IMG/VR virus record: IMGVR_UViG_3300035112_000036
Span: 1-44,403 of that record
Reading direction: 5' to 3' (one strand)
DNA length: 44,403 nt
Origin: a virus
Shown: in pieces, positions 1-20,327 of the stretch
Position numbering within the stretch: position 1 is the stretch's first letter
Layout: each line of letters starts with the position of its first letter
The notes under the pieces: model-generated
Told to the model about the DNA's origin: nothing
Seen by the model: the letters and a program-made list of their open reading frames with translations, nothing else
Database searches by the model: none
Program-made: the position numbers and the translations under genes

Positions 1-127
1 GGCCTGCGGCAGGCGGCTCCGGCCGCCCGCGTGGCGGGGGATGTCACCCCCGAGGAAGCGGCCTACCTCGCCCGCCGCGCCGAGGCTCTGCGATCGACGC
101 CGGGCGCCACAGAGGCCCCCCTGCGGC
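1..127. repeat. Terminal direct repeat, left copy
   Basis: Bases 1-127 are identical to bases 44277-44403. The repeat lies inside the large virion-protein gene and keeps its reading frame. An exact overlap of 127 bases matches a common assembler k-mer length, so I read it as the closing overlap of a circular contig rather than a physical phage end. A short direct terminal repeat in the virion is the alternative. Confidence 0.95.
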
Positions 128-3100
128 CCGGCGCCATCGCGGACGCCATGCAGCCCGAGCGCAGCATCCTCCAGGTGGGCGAGCACCCGGACGCCGCCTC
201 GGTGGACGTGGCGCTAGGCCTGCGCGCCCGGCCCCGGGACGCGGCCGACGCCGCCGCGCTCGCGCGCCAGAGCCTTGACGCCGCCCCCTCGATCCCGGCC
301 GCGCCCCACGGGGAGCCCGCACTGGACGAGCTGCTGGCCGCTCGGGAGGCGCCCCCCGCCGTCGCCGTCGCGCCCCGCGCGAAACCGCCGTCGCTGGCGG
401 AGATCTTCGGAGATCGCCAGGGATCGCCAGGGATCGCCGGTAATCTGCCGTCGGCTCAAGAAAGCGAACTGCAGGTTGCTCGAGGGATTGCGGAAAGCGT
501 TGGTCCGCGCGTCAGCGCCATTGATAATGTTGAGGCGCCGAGCCCGCCGGCAGCGGAACCATCGACACTGCCATCACCCATCCTGCGCAACCTCCTCACC
601 CACGAGGAGCTGCCGCTCGACACGCCGCGCACCGGCACCAAGAACGCCGTGACCCAGAGCGAGCGGATTGCCCGAGGACTGCCGGAGGTGGAGGATCTCG
701 CCAGGAAATCCACCGGGGACACCTGGCACGAGGCCCGTCAGGTCTTCGAGCAAGACCCCGAGGCACCCCGCCTGCTCGCCCAGCGGATCATCGAGAAGCC
801 GCGCGTGCTCACCCCCGTCGAGAACGATTTGCTCCTCCACGACCGCATGAAAATGACGCTCGACCACCGCGAGACTCTGGCGGCCGAGAGCGCGGCGCTC
901 GACGCTGGCGATGGCGAGGCGGCGGCGATGGCGAAGATGCGCCGGACTTCGATCGAGAGCGCCATGGACCTGAACGACACCGCCCTGAAGCGCGCGGGCG
1001 GCGAATGGGGCGCGGCTGGCGCGGCCCGCCAGAAGCTCATCGCAGAGGACTACAGCCCCCTCTACCTGCGCCAGCGGCTCACCGTGGCCGCCCGCGAGGC
1101 TGGGGTGCCGCCTCCGCCGGGCGCGGCCGAGCAGCTCGACAAGATCTCCACCCAGCTCGCGGAAGCCCAGCAGCAGCTCGCCGGCCACGAATCCCGGGTA
1201 TCCGAGCAGGAGGCCCAGCGCAACCTCGCCGTGGCCCGCAGCGAGACCGTCCGCGCCCAGCGGGCCGGGGTGCGGCAGGCCACCCGCCAGCAGCTCGACC
1301 AGGAGTACGAGCAGCTCGGCGCCCTCCTTGACAAGAAAGCCCGCGCGCGCCAGAGCACTACTTTCATGAGCGGCGGACTCGACCCCGAGACGGTGGGGAT
1401 CATCACGAAGATGGCGCGGAATCGGGTGCAGGCCGGCGTGAACAGCCTCCCCGACCTCGTACAGGGCATCCACGAGACGATTGCCCCTCACATCCCGGGC
1501 CTGGAGCCCTCCGAGGTACGCGACGCCATCTCCGGCTACGGTGCCGTGCGCCAGCAGGCGACGCGCTCCGAGGCCGAGGCCGCGCTGGCCCGCATTCGCC
1601 AGCAAGGTAAGCTCGTCTCGAAGATCGAGGCGCTCCAGGAGGGCGAGGCTCTTCCCGCCGGCGCCGCTCGGGCCAAGCCGGACCAGGTGACGCTTGCGCT
1701 GCGCGAGAAGCTCCGCCAGACCCAGAAGGATCTCGGCCTCGCGAAGAGCCGGCCGGAAGCCGATCGGCTCGCCGCGATCGAAAAGCGGCTCCAGCAGCGC
1801 ATCGCCGACGCCGAGCGTGGAATCGGCAACACGCGGGCGGCCAAGGTGAAGGACACCCCCCAGATTCAGGCTCTCCGCCAGCAGCTCGAGCAGACGCTCG
1901 AAGAGCACGGCCTCGCGCCGGAGGGTGGCGGCCGGCAGACGACCGACGCGCAGCGCCTCGCCGCCCTGAAGACGCGCCTCGCGAAACGGGAGGTCGAGCT
2001 GGCCGATGCAATCGCCTCGGGGTCGATCCCGAAGAAGGTCCGCCGCCCCCTCGCGCTTGACGCCGACGCCCTCGCCCTCCAGGGCCGGGTGAACAACCTG
2101 AAGCGCCAGGCGGACCTCATCATCCGCCGGCAGGAGCTCGCCGGCCGGGGGCCGCTGGAGAAGGGGCTGGACTGGACCGCCGGATGGGGACGGTTCCTGA
2201 AGCTCACCGGCACGAACACGCTGGTGAAGATCAGCGCCGCCGCGGCCGAGCGCGCCCTGATCTTCAAGCCTATAGAGGAAGTGATCGGCGCCGGCCTCTC
2301 GAAGCTGCCGGTGGTGCGCGACGTCGCGGCCCGAGCCCCGATCGAGGGTGGTGGCTCGCTGAACGCCATCGCGAAGAGCTACGCAGGTTTCTTCGGAAAG
2401 CAGGCCCGCCAGGAGTCCGTAGCATATCTGCGCGGCGGAGTGGGGCCGCTGGAGTCAGCTCTTGGAAAACCGCATCTTGAAGGGAGCGTTCCCGCCTGGA
2501 TGGAATATCCCGGCAAAGTCCACGCCGCCCTCAAGAGTCCGGCGAAGGTTGCGGCCTATCAATACGCCATGGAAAAGCAGGCGAAGCACTTTCTTTCCCT
2601 GGGGCAGGCCGAGAGGCTCACGGACCCTGTCGGCATCGCCGAAATGCAGGCCCGGGCTTGGGAATATGCGGAGAGGGACATCTTCATGGGAGACAACGCC
2701 GCCGTGCGCGGCTTCCGCAAGGCTTTTGAGCTTGAATCGGAACGTGACCCCGCTAATGTCGAGCGCGCCCTGAGGCAGGCTCGCGCCTTCGCTGAGCAAG
2801 GCAACATGTACGACGCGGTCCAGGGTTTTCGTAACGCTAAGCCGAGAGGCGACTCGGCAGCGGCGCGCGTCGGCAAGACGTTCGCCAACGTCATGGTCCC
2901 CATCGTAAAAGTGCCGACGAATTACGCTCTGGAGGCGACCGACTACCTGGCCGGACTTCCCAAAGGTATCGGGCGGCTGGCCTACGCCGTCCACAAGGGG
3001 CTCGACCGGCTCCCCGCCGAACAGGCCGAGCTCATCATGCGCCAGCTCAAGAAAGGCACGCTCGGCGCCGCGATGATCTCCCTGGGGGCGGCCGGCGTCG

Positions 3101-3624
3101 TCGAGGGGGGCGGCTACTATCAGGCCGGCGAGCACCGCGCCGAGAGCGACCTCAAGCCCGGAGAGGTCCGCGTGGCCGGGATCACCATCCCTCACCTGTT
3201 CCTGCACCACCCGGTAGTGGAGGCCCTCCAGGTGGGAGCCAGCCTGCGGCGCGCGAAGTCCGTCCCGGCGGGGGCGTGGACCGCGACAAAGGGCCTGGCC
3301 GAACAGGTGCCATTCGTCGAGACACCGCTCCAGATGAGCCGCGACCTGTGGGGCCGCACCCCCATGAAGGCGGTAGGGGAGTTCACCCGGGGCATGACGA
3401 TCCCTCCGGACGCACAACGGCTTGCGCGGGTGCTCGACCAAAAGGAAGAGCGCACCCCTGGTGAGATGTTCGCCGAGCAGCTCGGCCTTGGCGGGCTCGG
3501 CTTCGGAGAGCATCAGGTTCCCGAGATTCAAGCCGTCAAGCGTAAAAGCCACGGCGGTTTTTGGGAGCAGCTAATGCAACAGGAAGAGCTTGGGATACCG
3601 GGTCTTCGAGACAACGTGAGGTAG
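1..3624 (+). CDS. Giant internal virion / DNA-ejection protein, residues 390-1596 (C-terminal part)
   Basis: This is the continuation, in the same frame, of the gene that starts at 43110; the whole protein is 1,596 aa. Seen: low-complexity Ala/Pro-rich stretches at first, then a long Glu/Gln/Arg-rich coiled-coil stretch (about residues 750-1105), then a more globular and AT-richer part with KTFANVMVPIVKVPTNYALE (about residue 1350), a hydrophobic stretch with GTLGAAMISLGAAGVVEG (about residue 1410) and the C-terminal end IPGLRDNV. Known: large podoviral internal virion proteins (T7 gp16-like or polyvalent-domain proteins) often have such hydrophobic and 'PTN' segments and end in a PGLR motif. 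Inferred: it sits in the capsid core and forms part of the DNA-ejection conduit. No lysozyme or transglycosylase motif was recognised. It is followed 3 bp later by a membrane-anchored small protein. Confidence 0.8.
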   Translation, partial: GLRQAAPAARVAGDVTPEEAAYLARRAEALRSTPGATEAPLRPGAIADAMQPERSILQVGEHPDAASVDVALGLRARPRDAADAAALARQSLDAAPSIPAAPHGEPALDELLAAREAPPAVAVAPRAKPPSLAEIFGDRQGSPGIAGNLPSAQESELQVARGIAESVGPRVSAIDNVEAPSPPAAEPSTLPSPILRNLLTHEELPLDTPRTGTKNAVTQSERIARGLPEVEDLARKSTGDTWHEARQVFEQDPEAPRLLAQRIIEKPRVLTPVENDLLLHDRMKMTLDHRETLAAESAALDAGDGEAAAMAKMRRTSIESAMDLNDTALKRAGGEWGAAGAARQKLIAEDYSPLYLRQRLTVAAREAGVPPPPGAAEQLDKISTQLAEAQQQLAGHESRVSEQEAQRNLAVARSETVRAQRAGVRQATRQQLDQEYEQLGALLDKKARARQSTTFMSGGLDPETVGIITKMARNRVQAGVNSLPDLVQGIHETIAPHIPGLEPSEVRDAISGYGAVRQQATRSEAEAALARIRQQGKLVSKIEALQEGEALPAGAARAKPDQVTLALREKLRQTQKDLGLAKSRPEADRLAAIEKRLQQRIADAERGIGNTRAAKVKDTPQIQALRQQLEQTLEEHGLAPEGGGRQTTDAQRLAALKTRLAKREVELADAIASGSIPKKVRRPLALDADALALQGRVNNLKRQADLIIRRQELAGRGPLEKGLDWTAGWGRFLKLTGTNTLVKISAAAAERALIFKPIEEVIGAGLSKLPVVRDVAARAPIEGGGSLNAIAKSYAGFFGKQARQESVAYLRGGVGPLESALGKPHLEGSVPAWMEYPGKVHAALKSPAKVAAYQYAMEKQAKHFLSLGQAERLTDPVGIAEMQARAWEYAERDIFMGDNAAVRGFRKAFELESERDPANVERALRQARAFAEQGNMYDAVQGFRNAKPRGDSAAARVGKTFANVMVPIVKVPTNYALEATDYLAGLPKGIGRLAYAVHKGLDRLPAEQAELIMRQLKKGTLGAAMISLGAAGVVEGGGYYQAGEHRAESDLKPGEVRVAGITIPHLFLHHPVVEALQVGASLRRAKSVPAGAWTATKGLAEQVPFVETPLQMSRDLWGRTPMKAVGEFTRGMTIPPDAQRLARVLDQKEERTPGEMFAEQLGLGGLGFGEHQVPEIQAVKRKSHGGFWEQLMQQEELGIPGLRDNVR
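412..441 (+). repeat. Three tandem 10-bp units inside the virion gene
   Basis: Units GATCGCCAGG, GATCGCCAGG and GATCGCCGGT follow each other directly. Ten bases is not a multiple of three, so gain or loss of one unit would shift the frame. An AT-richer patch (about 440-560) follows at once, which suggests a recombination or slippage seam. Confidence 0.7.
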
Positions 3625-8694: not shown

Positions 8695-9098
8695 TTCGGC
8701 CCCTTCGCGAGCTCGGCCTCTACCCGTCCGAGGTGCCCCTGGGTGTTGCATTGCCCGGAGTAACACTCTCTGAGGCGGCGGCAGAGTCCCTCCGCCGCCG
8801 CCCGGAGCCCGGGGTAGGCGTTGTAGCGGTCCACTGCGGCAGCATACGCGGCGTCCCGTTGAGCTTCATTCTCGAAAAATATCTCTGGCGGGGCGATCGC
8901 CGGGCACGACTTGGAAACCGCCAGGTCCGGGCGGATCGCCAGCCGCTCCGGCAGCTTCACCGGCTCCGGGGCGAACTCCAGGCCGAGGGCCGCCTTGATG
9001 GCTTGCCACAAAGGCTCGCAAATCGTCCCGCCGGAATTCAACCAGGCATCAGCCGTGGCCTGGCGAGCTTCCTTCTCCGTCATCTTGCTCTGCATCAT
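8691..9098 (-). CDS. Hypothetical protein downstream of the ATPase
   Basis: 135 aa. ATG at 9098 overlaps the stop of the ATPase gene (ATGA). Seen: KEARQATADAWLNSGGTICE at the start, FFENEAQRDAAYAAAVDRYN, and a Cys-containing C-terminus (CRRLRECYSGQCNTQGH). The tight coupling to the recombination ATPase suggests a shared process. No fold is recognised. Confidence 0.7.
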   Translation of the reverse strand: MMQSKMTEKEARQATADAWLNSGGTICEPLWQAIKAALGLEFAPEPVKLPERLAIRPDLAVSKSCPAIAPPEIFFENEAQRDAAYAAAVDRYNAYPGLRAAAEGLCRRLRECYSGQCNTQGHLGRVEAELAKGPK

Positions 9099-10213
9099 CC
9101 CTCCTCGGGGTCTTCGCCCGGCTTCCGCTCGTTCTTGAGCGCGGCCAGCCCGTCGATGTTCTTCCTCAGCGCCGCCAACCCGATCTCCAACTGCCCGGGC
9201 GGGAGCGCGGCGATTTCCCTCCACGCCCTGGTGCCGAAAGCACTCTGGAGGGCGCCCTTCCCGTCCTCGGTCTTGCCCTCGCTCTCGGGCCAGTGCTTCC
9301 GCAGGAGCGAGAGGATCTCTTTTCGCAGCTCCGCCGCGCGAATGGCCGCCTCGGGATCGGCCGGCGGCGGGGCCTGCGCGGACTTGCCGGCAGCGGCTTC
9401 CCCCTTCGCCCACCGGGCCAGGGCCTCGCCGGTGTCCTCGGAGAGCGCGCCGTCGCGGATCAGCGGGGCCAGGAAGGCCGGAAGCTTGACGATGAAGTCC
9501 TCTCCGATCTTCTCCGATGTCCACACCGGCACGCCGTTCGCGCGAGGCGGCAGGATGCACGTGAGGTCCAGCCCGTGGACGATCTCCAGCGGCGCCACCG
9601 GCATCCATCCGATATTGGTGATCTTGTCCTTGCCGCCGCCCTTGCCCGGCTCAACAGCCGTCTTCTCGCGGGCCCGGAAGGTGAACAGGAGCGGCACCTT
9701 GATCTGCAACAGCCCGGAGATGAGTCGCTTCCGCGCCGCTTTGGGCATCGCCCACGCCGCCCACTCGTTGCCGCCCACGTAGCCGGGCTCTCCCCGCTTC
9801 GCCGTCGCGATCGCGTCGTGCCACTCCAGGTAGCCGCCCTCCCCTTCGTGCTCGTCGCTGAGGGTGTCCACGATGATCGCCGCCGGCTGCAACGGAAGCT
9901 GCGCCTTGATCGCCGCGAGGAAGTCGTGAGACCGGAAATCCGGGGTCATCTCCACACGCAGGAAGTCGAAGGCGAGCGCCGCCGGGTTGGCAGGCTTCCC
10001 GTTCTCCGGGCTGTACTTCTTCGACCGACCCCCCTCGGTGTCGATCAGCACAACGGGGCCGGGCCGCACCTTGCGCATCCCGGTTGCCAGGCGGAGCGCG
10101 GAGACGGTCTTGCCGCCGCCCGGGGGTCCGATCAGGCCGATCAGCAGCGGTTCCTCACCGCGCACGGACTGGACGGCGGGGGCAAATTTGCGCGGCTCGG
10201 GCAGGGCTGCCAT
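9095..10213 (-). CDS. P-loop RecA/Sak4-like phage ATPase (AAA_24 type)
   Basis: 372 aa. ATG at 10213, overlapping the upstream TGA by one base. Seen: Walker A GLIGPPGGGKTVSALRLA (about 28-45), VVLIDTEGGRSKKY after it, Walker B AAIIVDTLSDE, and a conserved core with NEWAAWAMPKAARKRLISGL and VPLLFTFRAREK. The C-terminal third is a linker plus a helical domain (about 275-372). Known: phage AAA_24/Sak4 proteins are single-strand-annealing recombination ATPases of the RecA superfamily. Inferred: it works with the RecE-like nuclease encoded upstream in the same operon, for recombination-dependent replication or repair. Confidence 0.85.
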   Translation of the reverse strand: MAALPEPRKFAPAVQSVRGEEPLLIGLIGPPGGGKTVSALRLATGMRKVRPGPVVLIDTEGGRSKKYSPENGKPANPAALAFDFLRVEMTPDFRSHDFLAAIKAQLPLQPAAIIVDTLSDEHEGEGGYLEWHDAIATAKRGEPGYVGGNEWAAWAMPKAARKRLISGLLQIKVPLLFTFRAREKTAVEPGKGGGKDKITNIGWMPVAPLEIVHGLDLTCILPPRANGVPVWTSEKIGEDFIVKLPAFLAPLIRDGALSEDTGEALARWAKGEAAAGKSAQAPPPADPEAAIRAAELRKEILSLLRKHWPESEGKTEDGKGALQSAFGTRAWREIAALPPGQLEIGLAALRKNIDGLAALKNERKPGEDPEEG

Positions 10214-10395
10214 CAGGAGATCTCCACGTCGGCCAGAACCTTCTCGATCTGATCGATGATCGGCCGGAAGCCCCACCCGCCAAGATCCCGCTGTGGCGGC
10301 CCGTCCACCGTGAGCACCAGCCGCTCCGCTTTCTGGCCCTGGCCGTTGACGAAGATGGCCTCGGCGATCTTCTCGGCCACTTCTCGCCGCGTCAC
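10213..10395 (-). CDS. Hypothetical 60-aa protein
   Basis: GTG start at 10395. Its stop overlaps the ATPase start (TGATG). Seen: MTRREVAEKIAEAIFVNGQG, then a short beta/helix part ending in IDQIEKVLADVEIS. It shares the opening residues MTRRE with the 12040 gene. Function unknown. Confidence 0.65.
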   Translation of the reverse strand: MTRREVAEKIAEAIFVNGQGQKAERLVLTVDGPPQRDLGGWGFRPIIDQIEKVLADVEIS

Positions 10396-10398
10396 GGC

Positions 10399-10677
10399 TC
10401 AACCCTCCACGCCGGCGGCCATGAGGGCGAGATGGATTTCCTTCTCGGCCTCCTTGCATTCTCGGCTGATAATTTCAGCTCGTGGGCCGTAGGCGGTGAC
10501 GCGCCAGAGAGAGATCAGCTTCCACGCCTCCAAGCACGCCAACGCCAGCGTGGGTGCGGCGGCGGCCAGCTTCATCCCCTCCTCCTCTTCCAGCTCGGGA
10601 GCGTAGATGAACGGGCCGCCGCTTCCGTTGGAGCTTCGTCCTCGCCGGAGCTTCTCCAGATCCTCACGCTTGAACAT
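10399..10677 (-). CDS. Hypothetical 92-aa helical protein
   Basis: ATG at 10677 with AAGGAG upstream. It overlaps the end of the S24 gene by 14 bp. Seen: a charged N-terminus (MFKREDLEKLRRG), a helix with PTLALACLEAWKLISLWR and a last helix with ECKEAEKEIHLALMAAG. No family is recognised. Confidence 0.65.
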   Translation of the reverse strand: MFKREDLEKLRRGRSSNGSGGPFIYAPELEEEEGMKLAAAAPTLALACLEAWKLISLWRVTAYGPRAEIISRECKEAEKEIHLALMAAGVEG

Positions 10678-11035
10678 CGCCGCTCCTTCCTTGCCCTCGC
10701 GAAAACTTCCGCATCATGCCCACCACCACGCCTTGCACTTGCACCTCCCGGACGGGCACGCGGATTGGCTGCATTGCTGGGTTTGCGGGGTGAAGCCGGA
10801 CCATCGGCCCCTCGCGGTAGTAGCGCTTCAGGGTGGCATCATCGTTCACGAGGCAGACGCACATGTCACCGTCCAGCGGGTCGTGCTCCCTAAGAACGAT
10901 CACGAAGTCGCCGTCGAAGACCCCCTCCCCCGCCATGGAATCACCGACGACACGGAGAACGTAGTGTTCTCCCTTTCCTTCCATCAGGTGTCCGGGTACA
11001 GTCACCCGGCCCTCAATCCTTTCAATCGGTGGCAT
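10664..11035 (-). CDS. Stand-alone S24 (LexA/UmuD-type) peptidase domain
   Basis: 123 aa. ATG at 11035 with GGGAGG upstream, overlapping the nuclease gene by 14 bp. Seen: YVLRVVGDSMAGEGVFDGD, where the Ser of GDSM is the nucleophile, and ATLKRYYREG, where Lys is the general base, then VRLHPANP and a closing beta strand. Known: this is the C-terminal peptidase of LexA, CI and UmuD. Odd: there is no DNA-binding domain, and no clear Ala-Gly or Cys-Gly self-cleavage site at the short N-terminus. Inferred: a UmuD-like or regulatory factor that might act in trans. A split repressor working with a separate HTH protein is possible. Confidence 0.85.
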   Translation of the reverse strand: MPPIERIEGRVTVPGHLMEGKGEHYVLRVVGDSMAGEGVFDGDFVIVLREHDPLDGDMCVCLVNDDATLKRYYREGPMVRLHPANPAMQPIRVPVREVQVQGVVVGMMRKFSRGQGRSGDVQA

Positions 11036-12053
11036 CGCCGTCCTCCCCTTCTTCGGCCATCCTGTCGAGAGATCTCTGGACCGCCCACGCCTGGGGCGGC
11101 GGAGCCACCATCGCCTCCGGTCCGGGCCACTGCCCCGAGGACAGACAGCGCGCCCACCCGCGCACCGCCGAAAGCCAGCGGTCCTCACCGAGCTGCCGGT
11201 GGGCCTGGGTCAGCAGGATCGCCCCGACCGCATACGGCGGCTCGATCTCGAAGCGGATGAAGGCGAAAGACGTCCTGCCCGCCATCTCCGGATGCACGGC
11301 CTCGAGCCCCCGCTGGTAACTGGCCCCCTGCATGAGCAGAGAGCTTTCTTCGTTGTCGAGCTGGCGGCAGAACCTCTCCATGCTCGCCCGGCCGACGTAG
11401 CTCTTCGTGCTGGCCTTCAGGTCGCAGAGCAACCCACAGGACGGGAGGCACAGGTCCCAGCGGGCGCGGCAGCGAACGATTCCCGGGCAACGCGTCGGAA
11501 GGCCCTGGCGTGGGCGGCAGCGGTGGCAATCGCCGTCACCGTCCGTGTCGTGAGGGCAGACCGTCCTCTCCTCCCACAGGCAGACGAGCTCGCGGCCGAA
11601 GTCCACCCACGACACTCCGTAGGGCTCCTCGGGCGAGACGACGTCCGCCACCGCCTGGCAGATCCGCGGCCGTAGGATCTCTGCCGTCCGGCACGCCCCC
11701 TCGTAATCCTCCGCGAGCACGGGGCTCTTCCCGGCCGCCCAGGCCTCATCCCGGATCTCGCGCGCTCTAGCCGTCCTGAAGTCCTCGTACTGCGCGGGCA
11801 GCACCACCAGCTCCTCCTCGCCCTCGCCGAGGATCACCGCGTGGTGGAGGGAGCCGGCATCCAGGATCTTCGACGCCTTCGCCTCCACGCTGCCTGGGAG
11901 GCGCGGGTGCTCTGCCGCCGCGTGCATCGGCGAGGCGGTGATGAGGGTGTGCGCGATCGACCGGCTGAGGGTCGGCACATCGCCGAGAGCGTCGGCATGG
12001 TACGTCCGCGCCGGGACCCCTTCGAGGATGGTGGGCTCACTAGGCCAGTCCAT
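11022..12053 (-). CDS. RecE-like PD-(D/E)XK exonuclease with cysteine-rich insertion
   Basis: 343 aa with ATG start. Seen: an N-terminal YHADALGDVPTLSRSIAHTL, ASKILDAGSLHHAVILGEGE, SWVDFGRELVCLWEERTV, then a Cys-rich insert (CPHDTDGDGDCHRC ... CPGIVRC), followed by RARWDLCLPSCGLLCDLKAS and a Gln/Tyr helix (LLMQGASYQRGLEAV). Known: in RecE/PDDEXK_12 nucleases, 'R.D...... .DLK' carries the catalytic Asp and D-x-K and the later Gln-Tyr helix is conserved. Inferred: 5'-3' resection for the Sak4-like ATPase. The insert could hold a zinc or iron-sulphur site, and this feature is less usual. Confidence 0.8.
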   Translation of the reverse strand: MDWPSEPTILEGVPARTYHADALGDVPTLSRSIAHTLITASPMHAAAEHPRLPGSVEAKASKILDAGSLHHAVILGEGEEELVVLPAQYEDFRTARAREIRDEAWAAGKSPVLAEDYEGACRTAEILRPRICQAVADVVSPEEPYGVSWVDFGRELVCLWEERTVCPHDTDGDGDCHRCRPRQGLPTRCPGIVRCRARWDLCLPSCGLLCDLKASTKSYVGRASMERFCRQLDNEESSLLMQGASYQRGLEAVHPEMAGRTSFAFIRFEIEPPYAVGAILLTQAHRQLGEDRWLSAVRGWARCLSSGQWPGPEAMVAPPPQAWAVQRSLDRMAEEGEDGDATD

Positions 12054-14209: not shown

Positions 14210-14485
14210 TTATAGAATCCCGAGCGCCACCAAGTACGCCCGAGCTGTGTCTTCATCGAATTCTCGCAGCTTCCCCAGCTCCATCTCGGAAAGCCGCTGC
14301 TTCGGAACGCCGATCTCCCGCGCCATCCTCGATAGAGAGCGCGGTCCCCAGGCGGCCTCCCGCTCGGCCCGCAAGAGGTCGCCGTCGATGTACTTCTCCG
14401 TCTCCTCCCCACAACGGCCGCACTGGCGAGTAAACACGTAGTCGGCCAGATCGTGCGGGCCGCGGTGACCGGGGAGGACGCTCAT
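14210..14485 (-). CDS. XRE-type helix-turn-helix protein with N-terminal CxxC
   Basis: 91 aa. The ATG at 14485 overlaps the upstream stop (ATGA). Seen: an N-terminal FTRQCGRCGEETEKYI knuckle, then GPRSLSRMAREIGVPKQRLS, EMELGKLREFDEDTARAYLV and ALGIL, which has the five-helix spacing of Cro/CI-type domains (recognition helix about VPKQRLSEMELG). Known: such proteins bind operator DNA, and the 'reversed' placing after a CxxCG pair resembles antitoxin-type regulators. Inferred: the likely repressor of the leftward promoter at 14868, which would make it self-regulating. Confidence 0.75.
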   Translation of the reverse strand: MSVLPGHRGPHDLADYVFTRQCGRCGEETEKYIDGDLLRAEREAAWGPRSLSRMAREIGVPKQRLSEMELGKLREFDEDTARAYLVALGIL

Positions 14486-14862: not shown

Positions 14863-14888
14863 ATTGTACCTCAAAGTCCGGACAAAGG
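14863..14888 (-). promoter_or_regulatory. Leftward promoter with -10 TACAAT and operator-like TCCGGAC
   Basis: On the minus strand TACAAT (14868-14863) sits 6 nt before the ATG at 14856. No good -35 is visible. Upstream, plus-strand bases 14877-14887 read TCCGGACAAAG, which is also found in front of the 16252 gene. The 5' UTR would be zero or nearly zero. Confidence 0.65.
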
Positions 14889-14916
14889 GGAAGCCCCGGC
14901 AATCCTGCGCCGGGGC
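14883..14916 (-). terminator. Intrinsic terminator after the secreted-peptide gene
   Basis: A perfect 8-bp stem (GCCCCGGC at 14893-14900, GCCGGGGC at 14909-14916) with an 8-nt loop, followed on the minus strand by TTCCCCTTTG. It closes the one-gene unit 15147-14938 and separates it from the next leftward promoter. Confidence 0.65.
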
Positions 14917-14937: not shown

Positions 14938-15147
14938 TCAGCTGGGCGGGGGGCAGATGTAAACTGGGCACGGATCCCAAGTCGCGCAAAGAGTGTACGC
15001 GTGCTCGCAGCGGTTCCAGCAGAAGTCGTCAGTGCAGTTGTCGGTGCAGTTTTCCCAATCGGTGTTGCATTCAGCTTCGGTTTTCGCGAGCGCAGGGCGG
15101 ACTACGATCGCGAGCAAGAAGAGAAATGTAATCAGCTTGATTCTCAT
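14938..15147 (-). CDS. Secreted cysteine-rich peptide (8 Cys)
   Basis: 69 aa, ATG at 15147 with AAAGGGG upstream. Seen: a clear signal peptide (MRIKLITFLFLLAIVVRPALA, cleavage after ALA), then a mature peptide of about 48 residues with eight cysteines spaced C-x6-C-x3-C-x4-C-x3-C-x6-C-x5-C-x4-C, ending CPPPS. The twin CxxxC motifs in a symmetric order suggest a disulphide-stapled helical hairpin. Known: phages carry secreted or periplasmic small proteins for superinfection exclusion or host modification. Inferred: an accessory cargo gene; its own terminators on both sides support this. Confidence 0.75.
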   Translation of the reverse strand: MRIKLITFLFLLAIVVRPALAKTEAECNTDWENCTDNCTDDFCWNRCEHAYTLCATWDPCPVYICPPPS

Positions 15148-15191
15148 TCATAACCCCTTTGTGCATGATCGGGCATAAGCGCCCGCGTCAA

Positions 15192-15209
15192 CCCCGGGTC
15201 GCTCCGGGG
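15192..15209 (-). terminator. Hairpin after the 15612 operon
   Basis: CCCCGG (15192-15197) and CCGGGG (15204-15209) form a 6-bp stem just after the stop at 15223. There is no good U-tract, so it may be only a weak terminator. A TTGACG follows on the minus strand and could be the -35 of the secreted-peptide gene, but no convincing -10 was seen. Confidence 0.4.
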
Positions 15210-15222
15210 CTGCCGTGGAAGC

Positions 15223-15612
15223 TCATTCCGTGGCGACGCTGTACCCGACGCGCCAAGCTTCCGAGCAGGAATCCTCGTCCTCGTTCGCCGCGTCGTCTTC
15301 GCGGCCGGGCCATGCGGTGAAGCGCCCGGCCTTGTCGGTCCACGCCCAATTGTCGTAGGAGCTGGCGGCTTTCGAGAGCTGCGCGGAGGACAGCGCGGTC
15401 GCTCGAATCCAGCCGCCTCCCGCGGTGTGCTTGGCCGGCATTCGCATGGCCGCGCGACACACCTCCCAAGTCACATCGTTCGCCTTGAGGGCCTGGCGAA
15501 CATCGCGGTGATGTTGCTTCTGAAGCAGGTGGATCGGCAAGAGGGCTAACACCGCGATTCCGAGCACGAAGCCTAGTAGCGCGGCGGTGATGATCTGCTG
15601 GCGGCTAGACAT
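15223..15612 (-). CDS. Membrane-anchored hypothetical protein
   Basis: 129 aa, ATG at 15612, overlapping the upstream microgene by 8 bp. Seen: one N-terminal membrane helix (about 8-28, IITAALLGFVLGIAVLALLP), then a soluble domain with two Cys, WIRATALSSAQLSKAASSYD, and an acidic DEDSC patch. It would face the cell exterior or periplasm if inserted as N-in. It directly precedes the secreted peptide gene, so both may act at the envelope. Confidence 0.7.
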   Translation of the reverse strand: MSSRQQIITAALLGFVLGIAVLALLPIHLLQKQHHRDVRQALKANDVTWEVCRAAMRMPAKHTAGGGWIRATALSSAQLSKAASSYDNWAWTDKAGRFTAWPGREDDAANEDEDSCSEAWRVGYSVATE

Positions 15613-16273: not shown

Positions 16274-16323
16274 CCGTCATCATCCCATACCTCCGGACGA
16301 ATGTCCAGAGGTTTCCGGACAAA
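16274..16323 (-). promoter_or_regulatory. Leftward promoter region with repeated TCCGGAC operator-like motifs
   Basis: On the minus strand TGGACA, 17 nt and GATGAT form a plausible -35/-10 pair. TCCGGAC occurs at 16292-16298 and 16314-16320, with TGTCCA between them. The outer copy TTTCCGGACAAAAG resembles AAAGTCCGGACAAAGG at the 14.9-kb promoter. A shared regulator, perhaps the XRE-type protein, could bind both. Confidence 0.5.
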
Positions 16324-19316: not shown

Positions 19317-19414
19317 CGGCGCCAGCGTTCTTCAATCAGCGCCAGCTTCTCGGGCGTCAGCTCACCTTCCAGCTCGACGTCGTCCCAGGCCAGATACTCG
19401 TAAAGCATCCCCAT
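19205..19414 (-). CDS. Hypothetical 69-aa protein overlapping the holin-like gene
   Basis: ATG at 19414 overlaps the hydrolase stop (TGATG). Seen: MGMLYEYLAWDDVELEGELT and a helix with EKLALIEERWRRYG; the C-terminal 37 residues are encoded opposite the holin-like gene. The coupling and composition of the N-terminus favour a real gene. Function unknown. Confidence 0.6.
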   Translation of the reverse strand: MGMLYEYLAWDDVELEGELTPEKLALIEERWRRYGSVTPLLAKVKANAKKPAAHISRPISATLGLVARA

Positions 19415-19863
19415 CAGGGCACTCCTTCCGCGAAAACAAACCTGTCCGCAGCGATCCCCGACGGCGTATAGAGCCGCTTCGCCTGCGCGGCCCATGGCGG
19501 TTTGCTACCCGGCGGCTTCATGCTCACGGGGCTGTAGTAGTGGAGCGTTTCTCGGGTAATTGCTGAGGTCCAGTAATCACCCGGCGCGGCATTCCCCACG
19601 AAGGCCGCGGCCCACATGAGCAGCAGCGGCACTTCCCGGCGGCTAGCCAGAGCGAACGTGTTGGAGAGCCCTCGTTTCTTCGTGAAATCGTTGAACGCGG
19701 AGAACTGCTGCGGAGCAAGAATCACGCTCTTGTACGTGTTTCCCCACCTGCCGCTGGAGAGCCGGTTTTCGATCACCTGCGCGATCGCCGGCCACTCCTC
19801 GGGCCGGTTGCTCTCGGTACAGAGGCAGAGGGCCAGCCAGTCGAGATCCGTGGGCTCGATCAC
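19414..19863 (-). CDS. SleB-like cell-wall hydrolase (endolysin candidate)
   Basis: 149 aa. GTG at 19863 after AAAGGAGG and overlapping the upstream stop (GTGA). Seen: DWLALCLCTESNRPEEWPAI with the Glu of TESNR as likely catalytic acid, then AQVIENRL, VILAPQQFSAFNDFTKKRGL and a C-terminal YYSPVSMKPPGSKPPWAA. Known: the Hydrolase_2/SleB family has 'AL.. .EA......(A)VA.VI.NR.......VIL.P.QFS' and is a lytic transglycosylase-type fold that cuts peptidoglycan. No signal peptide, so a holin is needed. The nearby 19155 product is the candidate. Confidence 0.85.
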   Translation of the reverse strand: MIEPTDLDWLALCLCTESNRPEEWPAIAQVIENRLSSGRWGNTYKSVILAPQQFSAFNDFTKKRGLSNTFALASRREVPLLLMWAAAFVGNAAPGDYWTSAITRETLHYYSPVSMKPPGSKPPWAAQAKRLYTPSGIAADRFVFAEGVP

Positions 19864-20327
19864 CGCGCACCTCCTTTCGTCCAAGGGTCGGCCAGCACCC
19901 GCCCCGGGCCCGGCGGCGGCGCGTCGGGAATCGAGCTGGCCGGCTTCGGCGCTGGCGGATCGGGCTTCCGTTGGGACGCCGCCTTCTTCGCCCTGGCCGC
20001 GTGCGCCAGCGCAACTCCCCGCCTGTTGCTTTCCCGGTAGGCCTCGGCGCTCCGATGCGGACGAAGCGGTGGGAGTGGGCTGGCGATCGGCTGGCGCTCT
20101 GTCGCCGCGGTGGGCCCCAGCCCTTCCGGCCCAGTGCAGGCCAGACACGCATTCTGCCGGCCGTCCCAGGTGAGGTTGTGTTTGCCGAATTCCTCGATCG
20201 GCTTCACCCGGCCGCAGCGGTTGCACGGCTTGACCACCGCGCCGTGGAGAGCGAAGTGCGGGACCTCCCGCTTGCCGTAGTCGCGGCCGGCGGAGTACTT
20301 CTCGACGGCGTGCTGAGTAGCGATCAT
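19860..20327 (-). CDS. Zinc-knuckle protein with endonuclease VII-like N-terminal motif
   Basis: 155 aa, ATG at 20327 overlapping the upstream stop (ATGA). Seen: PCNRCGRVKPIEEFGKHNLT, then WDGRQNACLACTG. Known: the pattern CxxCG..K....F......DGR...C..C is found in phage recombination endonuclease VII-like proteins and in related zinc ribbons. The rest is a disordered Pro/Ala/Lys-rich tail, and the catalytic HNH/His-Asn part was not seen. So a zinc-ribbon DNA-binding protein is safer than a nuclease. Confidence 0.7.
   Translation of the reverse strand: MIATQHAVEKYSAGRDYGKREVPHFALHGAVVKPCNRCGRVKPIEEFGKHNLTWDGRQNACLACTGPEGLGPTAATERQPIASPLPPLRPHRSAEAYRESNRRGVALAHAARAKKAASQRKPDPPAPKPASSIPDAPPPGPGRVLADPWTKGGAR

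Follow-up and report, generated by a model that had tools for sequence, protein, structure and literature searches.

An exported eight-cysteine phage peptide with a predicted stapled alpha-hairpin fold and relatives among bacterial secreted proteins

The DNA analysed here is a 44.4-kb IMG/VR contig with 67% GC (this whole stretch of 44,403 nucleotides is called the window below), which encodes a P22-like portal, terminase, capsid, exonuclease VIII, an AAA recombination protein and an S24 (LexA-type) protein. In its leftward early region, on the minus strand, lies a small gene (14938-15147, read from 15147 to 14938, with an ATG start and its stop codon at 14938-14940) for a secreted peptide of 69 amino acids with eight cysteines, MRIKLITFLFLLAIVVRPALA|KTEAECNTDWENCTDNCTDDFCWNRCEHAYTLCATWDPCPVYICPPPS (signal|mature). 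It follows a gene (15223-15612, minus strand) whose 129-residue product has an N-terminal transmembrane segment and an extracytoplasmic domain and for which no family was found, and it precedes a gene without assignment and one for an XRE-type helix-turn-helix regulator of 91 amino acids (14210-14485, minus strand; Pfam HTH_3 and HTH_31, both at 4e-4). The minus strand also carries a recombination module with an exonuclease VIII-like gene and an AAA/Sak4-like protein (9095-12053), and an S24 peptidase of the LexA/UmuD/CI type (10664-11188, E 7e-26), which hints at a DNA-damage-linked switch, though no integrase was found within the 44.4-kb window and lysogeny of the phage is therefore unproven. 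Sites resembling TTTGTCCGGA occur on the minus strand at 14877-14886, 16292-16301 and 16314-16323, upstream of two leftward gene blocks; they may be operators of the XRE or S24 regulator encoded close by, and their count alone is not above chance. At its start, the contig encodes a 1197-residue protein (31-3624, plus strand) for which PHROG and Pfam matches were not found. Relatives of the phage itself were found neither by nucleotide search nor by tblastn with the terminase or portal.

A ribosome-binding site, AAAGGGG (15154-15160, minus strand), lies 6 nt 5' of the ATG of the peptide gene. Residues 1-21 (15085-15147) form a predicted Sec signal peptide, made up of MRIK, a 12-residue hydrophobic core and ALA|K, with a hydropathy score of 3.2 and predicted cleavage after RPALA (junction RPALA|KTEA); the inspected sequence contains neither a lipobox nor a twin-arginine motif. 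The mature domain of 48 amino acids (14941-15084) has a net charge of about -7 and the cysteine spacing C-x6-C-x3-C-x4-C-x3-C-x6-C-x5-C-x4-C. An initial annotation had read precisely this spacing, preceded by a signal peptide and within about 48 mature residues, from the DNA, and translation of the minus-strand ORF agrees with this reading. All eight cysteines are encoded by TGC, and the codon score of the ORF is about zero, as expected because it is so short and of such odd composition. Exactly one ORF in the whole window combines a hydrophobic N-terminus with at least eight cysteines in 45 amino acids, and with the palindromic arrangement described below; in an order-2 Markov simulation, none of 60 windows contained an ORF that joined such a leader to eight cysteines within 45 amino acids. 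Such an ORF is therefore not expected by chance. Its GC content of 55.7% is the lowest of the called genes (1.4th percentile of the window), partly because of the amino-acid make-up of the peptide; a base composition unlike that of the phage is also a mark of 'moron' genes.

The same annotation had described the gene as terminator-bounded and as an independent cargo unit. A hairpin does lie on each side, i.e. an upstream one with a 9-pair stem and without a U-run between gene 15223-15612 and the peptide gene (15189-15212, minus strand), and a downstream one, again with a 9-pair stem, which is followed by TTCCCCTTT and is terminator-like without being canonical (14893-14916, minus strand). The terminator scan called neither, however, and a canonical U-run is absent from both. 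Their folds have a z of about -2.5 and are equalled by 5 of 200 shuffles, but because similar hairpins occur at a background rate of about 1.4 per kb per strand in the window, the pair is only suggestive. A terminator-bounded gene is thus plausible, if weakly so, and the same weakness affects the independent unit: the low local GC is compatible with it, whereas the hairpins lack U-runs and a promoter of its own was not seen between them in a scan for sigma-70-like promoters, which may not cover those of the host.

The six inner cysteines of the mature peptide are palindromic around residue 19.5 (6+33 = 13+26 = 17+22 = 39). From the bare sequence, AlphaFold2 predicts helices at residues 3-16 and 20-34 with a mean pLDDT of 71.6; given a 17-row alignment, it places them at 3-15 and 20-35, with a loose tail from residue 36, with pLDDT values of 86, 96 and 93 for the successive blocks of ten over residues 1-30 (roughly 90 or higher for residues 10-30) and with similar confidence in all five models. 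The first of these two antiparallel helices would carry C6, C13 and C17, the second C22, C26 and C33, and the tail C39 and C44. Both runs support the disulphide-stapled helical hairpin anticipated by the initial annotation, and the predicted fold fits three cross-helix disulphides, which would be C6-C33, C13-C26 and C17-C22, plus a tail bond C39-C44. Foldseek with this model returned no significant match, as is normal for a fold of two helices, on which it says little.

When the peptide itself was the query, no usable homologue came from IMG/VR (8-mers), INPHARED (tblastn), Pfam, PHROGs, NCBIfam, PDB or PADLOC, and no model for it was found in Pfam, NCBIfam, PHROGs or PADLOC. A first degenerate scan for its cysteines was swamped by low-complexity repeats, and constraints on neighbouring codons were then added. 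When the cysteine-plus-aromatic geometry was scanned in 85,000 species genomes, most matches were out of frame, and real exported proteins came from Myxococcus, Pyxidicoccus, four Polyangium, one Syntrophaceae and Candidatus Magnetominusculus; a profile built from these proteins found many more matches in Myxococcota, the relatives outside Myxococcota coming from one Desulfobacterota-like and one Nitrospirota-like genome. With a 15-row profile at E<=1e-4, relatives with the six-cysteine core were present in 21 of 195 genomes of one Myxococcota group and in 18 of 284 of another. A search of 148 genomes from the phylum to which the Syntrophaceae genome belongs matched that genome alone.

These bacterial relatives are small secreted peptides or form the C-terminal end of larger exported proteins, and the general form of the class is C-x3-C-x6-C-x3-C-x4..6-C-x3-C-x6-C-x3-C. 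C6, C13, C17, C22, C26 and C33 are invariant in all alignment rows, and the phage peptide has both the core C-x6-C-x3-C-xn-C-x3-C-x6-C and, by sequence and hydropathy test, the export signal of the class; in alignment A2 the cysteines alone are conserved. Cysteine conservation in homologues, on which the initial annotation had let its reading stand or fall, therefore holds for the inner cysteines. The eight-cysteine hairpin peptides of Myxococcota (L250/L253, L244/L252, L240, L197) share with the phage peptide a signal peptide, the hairpin length and a C-x6-C-x3-C-x4/6-C-x3-C-x6-C core, often with an aromatic residue four positions after the outer cysteine. In contrast to the phage peptide, with its tail cysteines at spacings x5 and x4, they usually have an extra C-x3-C at each end and hence four symmetric pairs; this fourth pair is usual, not universal, in the class, and the phage peptide has T2 and D37 in its place. 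By its sequence, it appears as a variant of the class which lacks the N-terminal C-x3-C and has two tail cysteines instead.

Whether the residues between the cysteines also fit was assessed with profiles, although five alignment rows had been picked by the peptide's own geometry, from which the search began, so that this test is partly circular: in a leave-one-out profile the peptide scores 23.0 bits, a value which 5000 free shuffles (at most 14.1) do not approach and which 4 of 2000 cysteine-fixed shuffles reach, and with a profile of rows not chosen by this geometry it scores 19.5 bits, reached by 18 of 2000 shuffles. The intervening residues thus seem to fit the class profile modestly. We therefore place the peptide in this stapled-hairpin scaffold class; descent from a common ancestor is uncertain, since identity to the relatives is only 17-34% and cysteine geometry can converge.

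The class takes several other forms in bacteria. In a lipoprotein-like Polyangium family of about 250 amino acids (L184, L213, L220, L223) the stapled hairpin is a C-terminal domain; one Myxococcota genome (L253; G108:C46, about 228386-228834) carries a tandem pair of hairpin peptide genes, the loop being longer in one of them; and Myxococcota proteins of about 580-680 amino acids (L247/L292 and L266/L275) contain many repeated CxxxC hairpin units. A radical-SAM reading of the pattern (CxxxC ranthipeptides) was considered and rejected: one relative touches TIGR04117 at E 0.08, far under the cut-off, and the export signal speaks for disulphides.

In phages, the scaffold is less rare than had been supposed. 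IMG/VR was scanned twice for the general eight-cysteine form. The scan with loop 4 yielded 3 small in-frame ORFs that begin with a hydrophobic leader, and that with loop 5 yielded 9; a decoy cysteine geometry, as long and similarly constrained, had 0 matches. About ten phage contigs encode an eight-cysteine hairpin with a signal peptide or lipobox (L313, L314, L318, L327, L328/L336, L334, L341, L345, L351 and L365; L305 is doubtful); L328 and L336 encode the same peptide, L313 and L345 are contigs of over 300 kb, and L327 and L351 encode lipoprotein versions. In L334 (196-528) the peptide has two cysteine-rich blocks, the second of which is the stapled hairpin. The claim that such hairpins are rare among phage products is thus only partly borne out: they are unannotated, but some ten further contigs have the same scaffold. 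Seven phage versions gave no good match in PHROGs (best E 0.0055, to a family without known function), tblastn with sister peptides had no hits in plasmids or phages, and a literature search on phage-encoded cysteine-rich secreted peptides found no relevant papers. No other genuine viral match was found for the exact geometry of our peptide including the aromatics. The gene neighbourhoods differ: in L318 the genes directly after the peptide gene encode a repressor-like protein (phrog_8, 3e-9) and an integrase (phrog_1, 2.5e-45), and in L351 the peptide gene has a repressor-like gene on either side and a ParA gene in the vicinity; other copies are near helicase/terminase genes (L327), replication genes (L341) or membrane and tail-like genes (L328, L365).

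Our tentative explanation, which may well prove wrong as a whole, is that of an exported stapled hairpin which acts at the envelope as an accessory factor, most likely in superinfection exclusion. The Sec pathway would export the mini-protein and signal peptidase I would take off the 21 residues; in the oxidising periplasm, the helical hairpin would then be stapled by its three symmetric disulphides, the fourth probably tying the tail. The peptide would belong to a loose, unnamed class of stapled alpha-hairpins secreted by Myxococcota and some other bacteria, members of which unrelated phages may have acquired repeatedly. From its export, rigidity and acidity, the hairpin would most likely serve as an envelope binding module and not as a membrane-lytic toxin, and an acidic peptide indeed argues against a cationic toxin of this kind. 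As an accessory, 'moron'-like gene, it would most likely protect the infected or lysogenised cell from rival phages, or otherwise modify the envelope. Superinfection exclusion is, by analogy, the leading idea for this function because two sister genes are located in immunity modules (L318, L351) and because of the precedents Ltp and Glo discussed below. Against it stand the copies of L341, L327 and L328, which are in replication or tail/membrane-gene regions and not in lysogeny modules, and the fact that a function is known for none of the relatives found. More doubtful is the generalization that unrelated phages, including those with genomes of over 300 kb and prophages with the gene in an immunity module, share unrecognized exported four-disulphide alpha-hairpins which come from a large pool of bacterial secreted peptides and, in the periplasm, exclude superinfecting phages or block the envelope.

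The same hairpin could also serve the current infection instead of excluding competitors, if it were a phage copy of a secreted hairpin of a Myxococcota-like host that inhibits or competes with a host envelope protein such as a protease, hydrolase or receptor. We consider this rather unlikely, although most bacterial relatives are small secreted Myxococcota peptides or C-terminal add-on domains, as expected of a binding module, and the 67% GC of the phage fits such a host; a relative of the portal was not found in 189 Myxococcota genomes, and no target protein was recognized. An antibacterial or antagonistic peptide, freed at lysis or by lysogens in the manner of bacteriocins or plant alpha-hairpinins, is improbable: its shape is that of antimicrobial alpha-hairpinins (PMC11591084) and of the helical-hairpin animal toxin 1VIB (E 0.011), but antimicrobial peptides are typically cationic (PMC11591084), which the mature peptide is not, and no immunity gene or secretion system was recognized beside its gene.

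Cysteines lining the inner helix faces might hold Cu(I) or another metal by their thiols rather than form disulphides, as in bacterial Csp3, which binds many Cu(I) ions via cysteine thiolates (PMC5519932). With a Sec and not a twin-arginine signal, however, the peptide would meet the oxidising periplasm unfolded, and just two predicted helices with palindromic cysteines, as for cross-helix pairs, make this a quite improbable alternative. A lysis accessory, i.e. a spanin-like or lysis-timing protein, is very improbable: an inner-membrane protein with an outside domain is encoded just before the peptide, and small membrane proteins adjoin the L328 and L365 copies, yet the lysis-like gene of the window, a cell-wall hydrolase (19414-20226), is 4 kb away, the peptide has no lipobox, and other phage copies adjoin repressor or replication genes. 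That the ORF is spurious or its cysteine pattern accidental, as its near-zero codon score and the failure of the database searches to find a close homologue could be taken to mean, is extremely improbable given the ribosome-binding site, signal peptide, eight TGC codons, simulation and profile fit.

Small exported cysteine-rich phage proteins thus escape current family libraries, Pfam, NCBIfam, PHROGs and PADLOC having no model here, and a conserved cysteine geometry offers a simple search key. The peptide links phage accessory genes with many uncharacterized secreted peptides of Myxococcota. If the class acts at the envelope, a compact and stable scaffold joins the known exclusion proteins.

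The architecture itself is already known outside bacteria; a curated bacterial or phage family was not found for the peptide. Copper-storage proteins (Csp) are four-helix bundles, and their periplasmic type is exported by the twin-arginine route. Their cysteines are spaced along helices like those of the phage peptide, which differs from them in having two predicted helices and a Sec signal devoid of an RR motif. Ltp (TP-J34), an exported superinfection-exclusion lipoprotein which prevents DNA entry and whose gene is part of a lysogeny module, and Glo (Vibrio cholerae), a soluble periplasmic superinfection-exclusion protein (PMC3952083), are phage or prophage proteins whose action takes place outside the cytoplasmic membrane, where our peptide would be too, judging by its export signal; a sequence relation to them was not seen. 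Plant alpha-hairpinins have the same helix-loop-helix architecture, and C13-x3-C17-x4-C22-x3-C26 conforms to their 4C motif C-x3-C-x4-20-C-x3-C, but they are cationic plant peptides with two disulphides, and four further cysteines place the phage peptide outside the family, whose curated criteria allow at most two cysteines beyond the 4C/6C motif (PMC11591084). Among solved structures, the best sequence match, though a weak and cysteine-driven one (profile A3, E 0.011), is to a toxin of the ribbon worm Cerebratulus lacteus, neurotoxin B-IV (PDB 1VIB), a 55-residue helical hairpin with four disulphides (PMC6410017); it has similar half-patterns C-x3-C-x6-C but is an animal toxin with another loop, and the likeness would be convergent or very remote.
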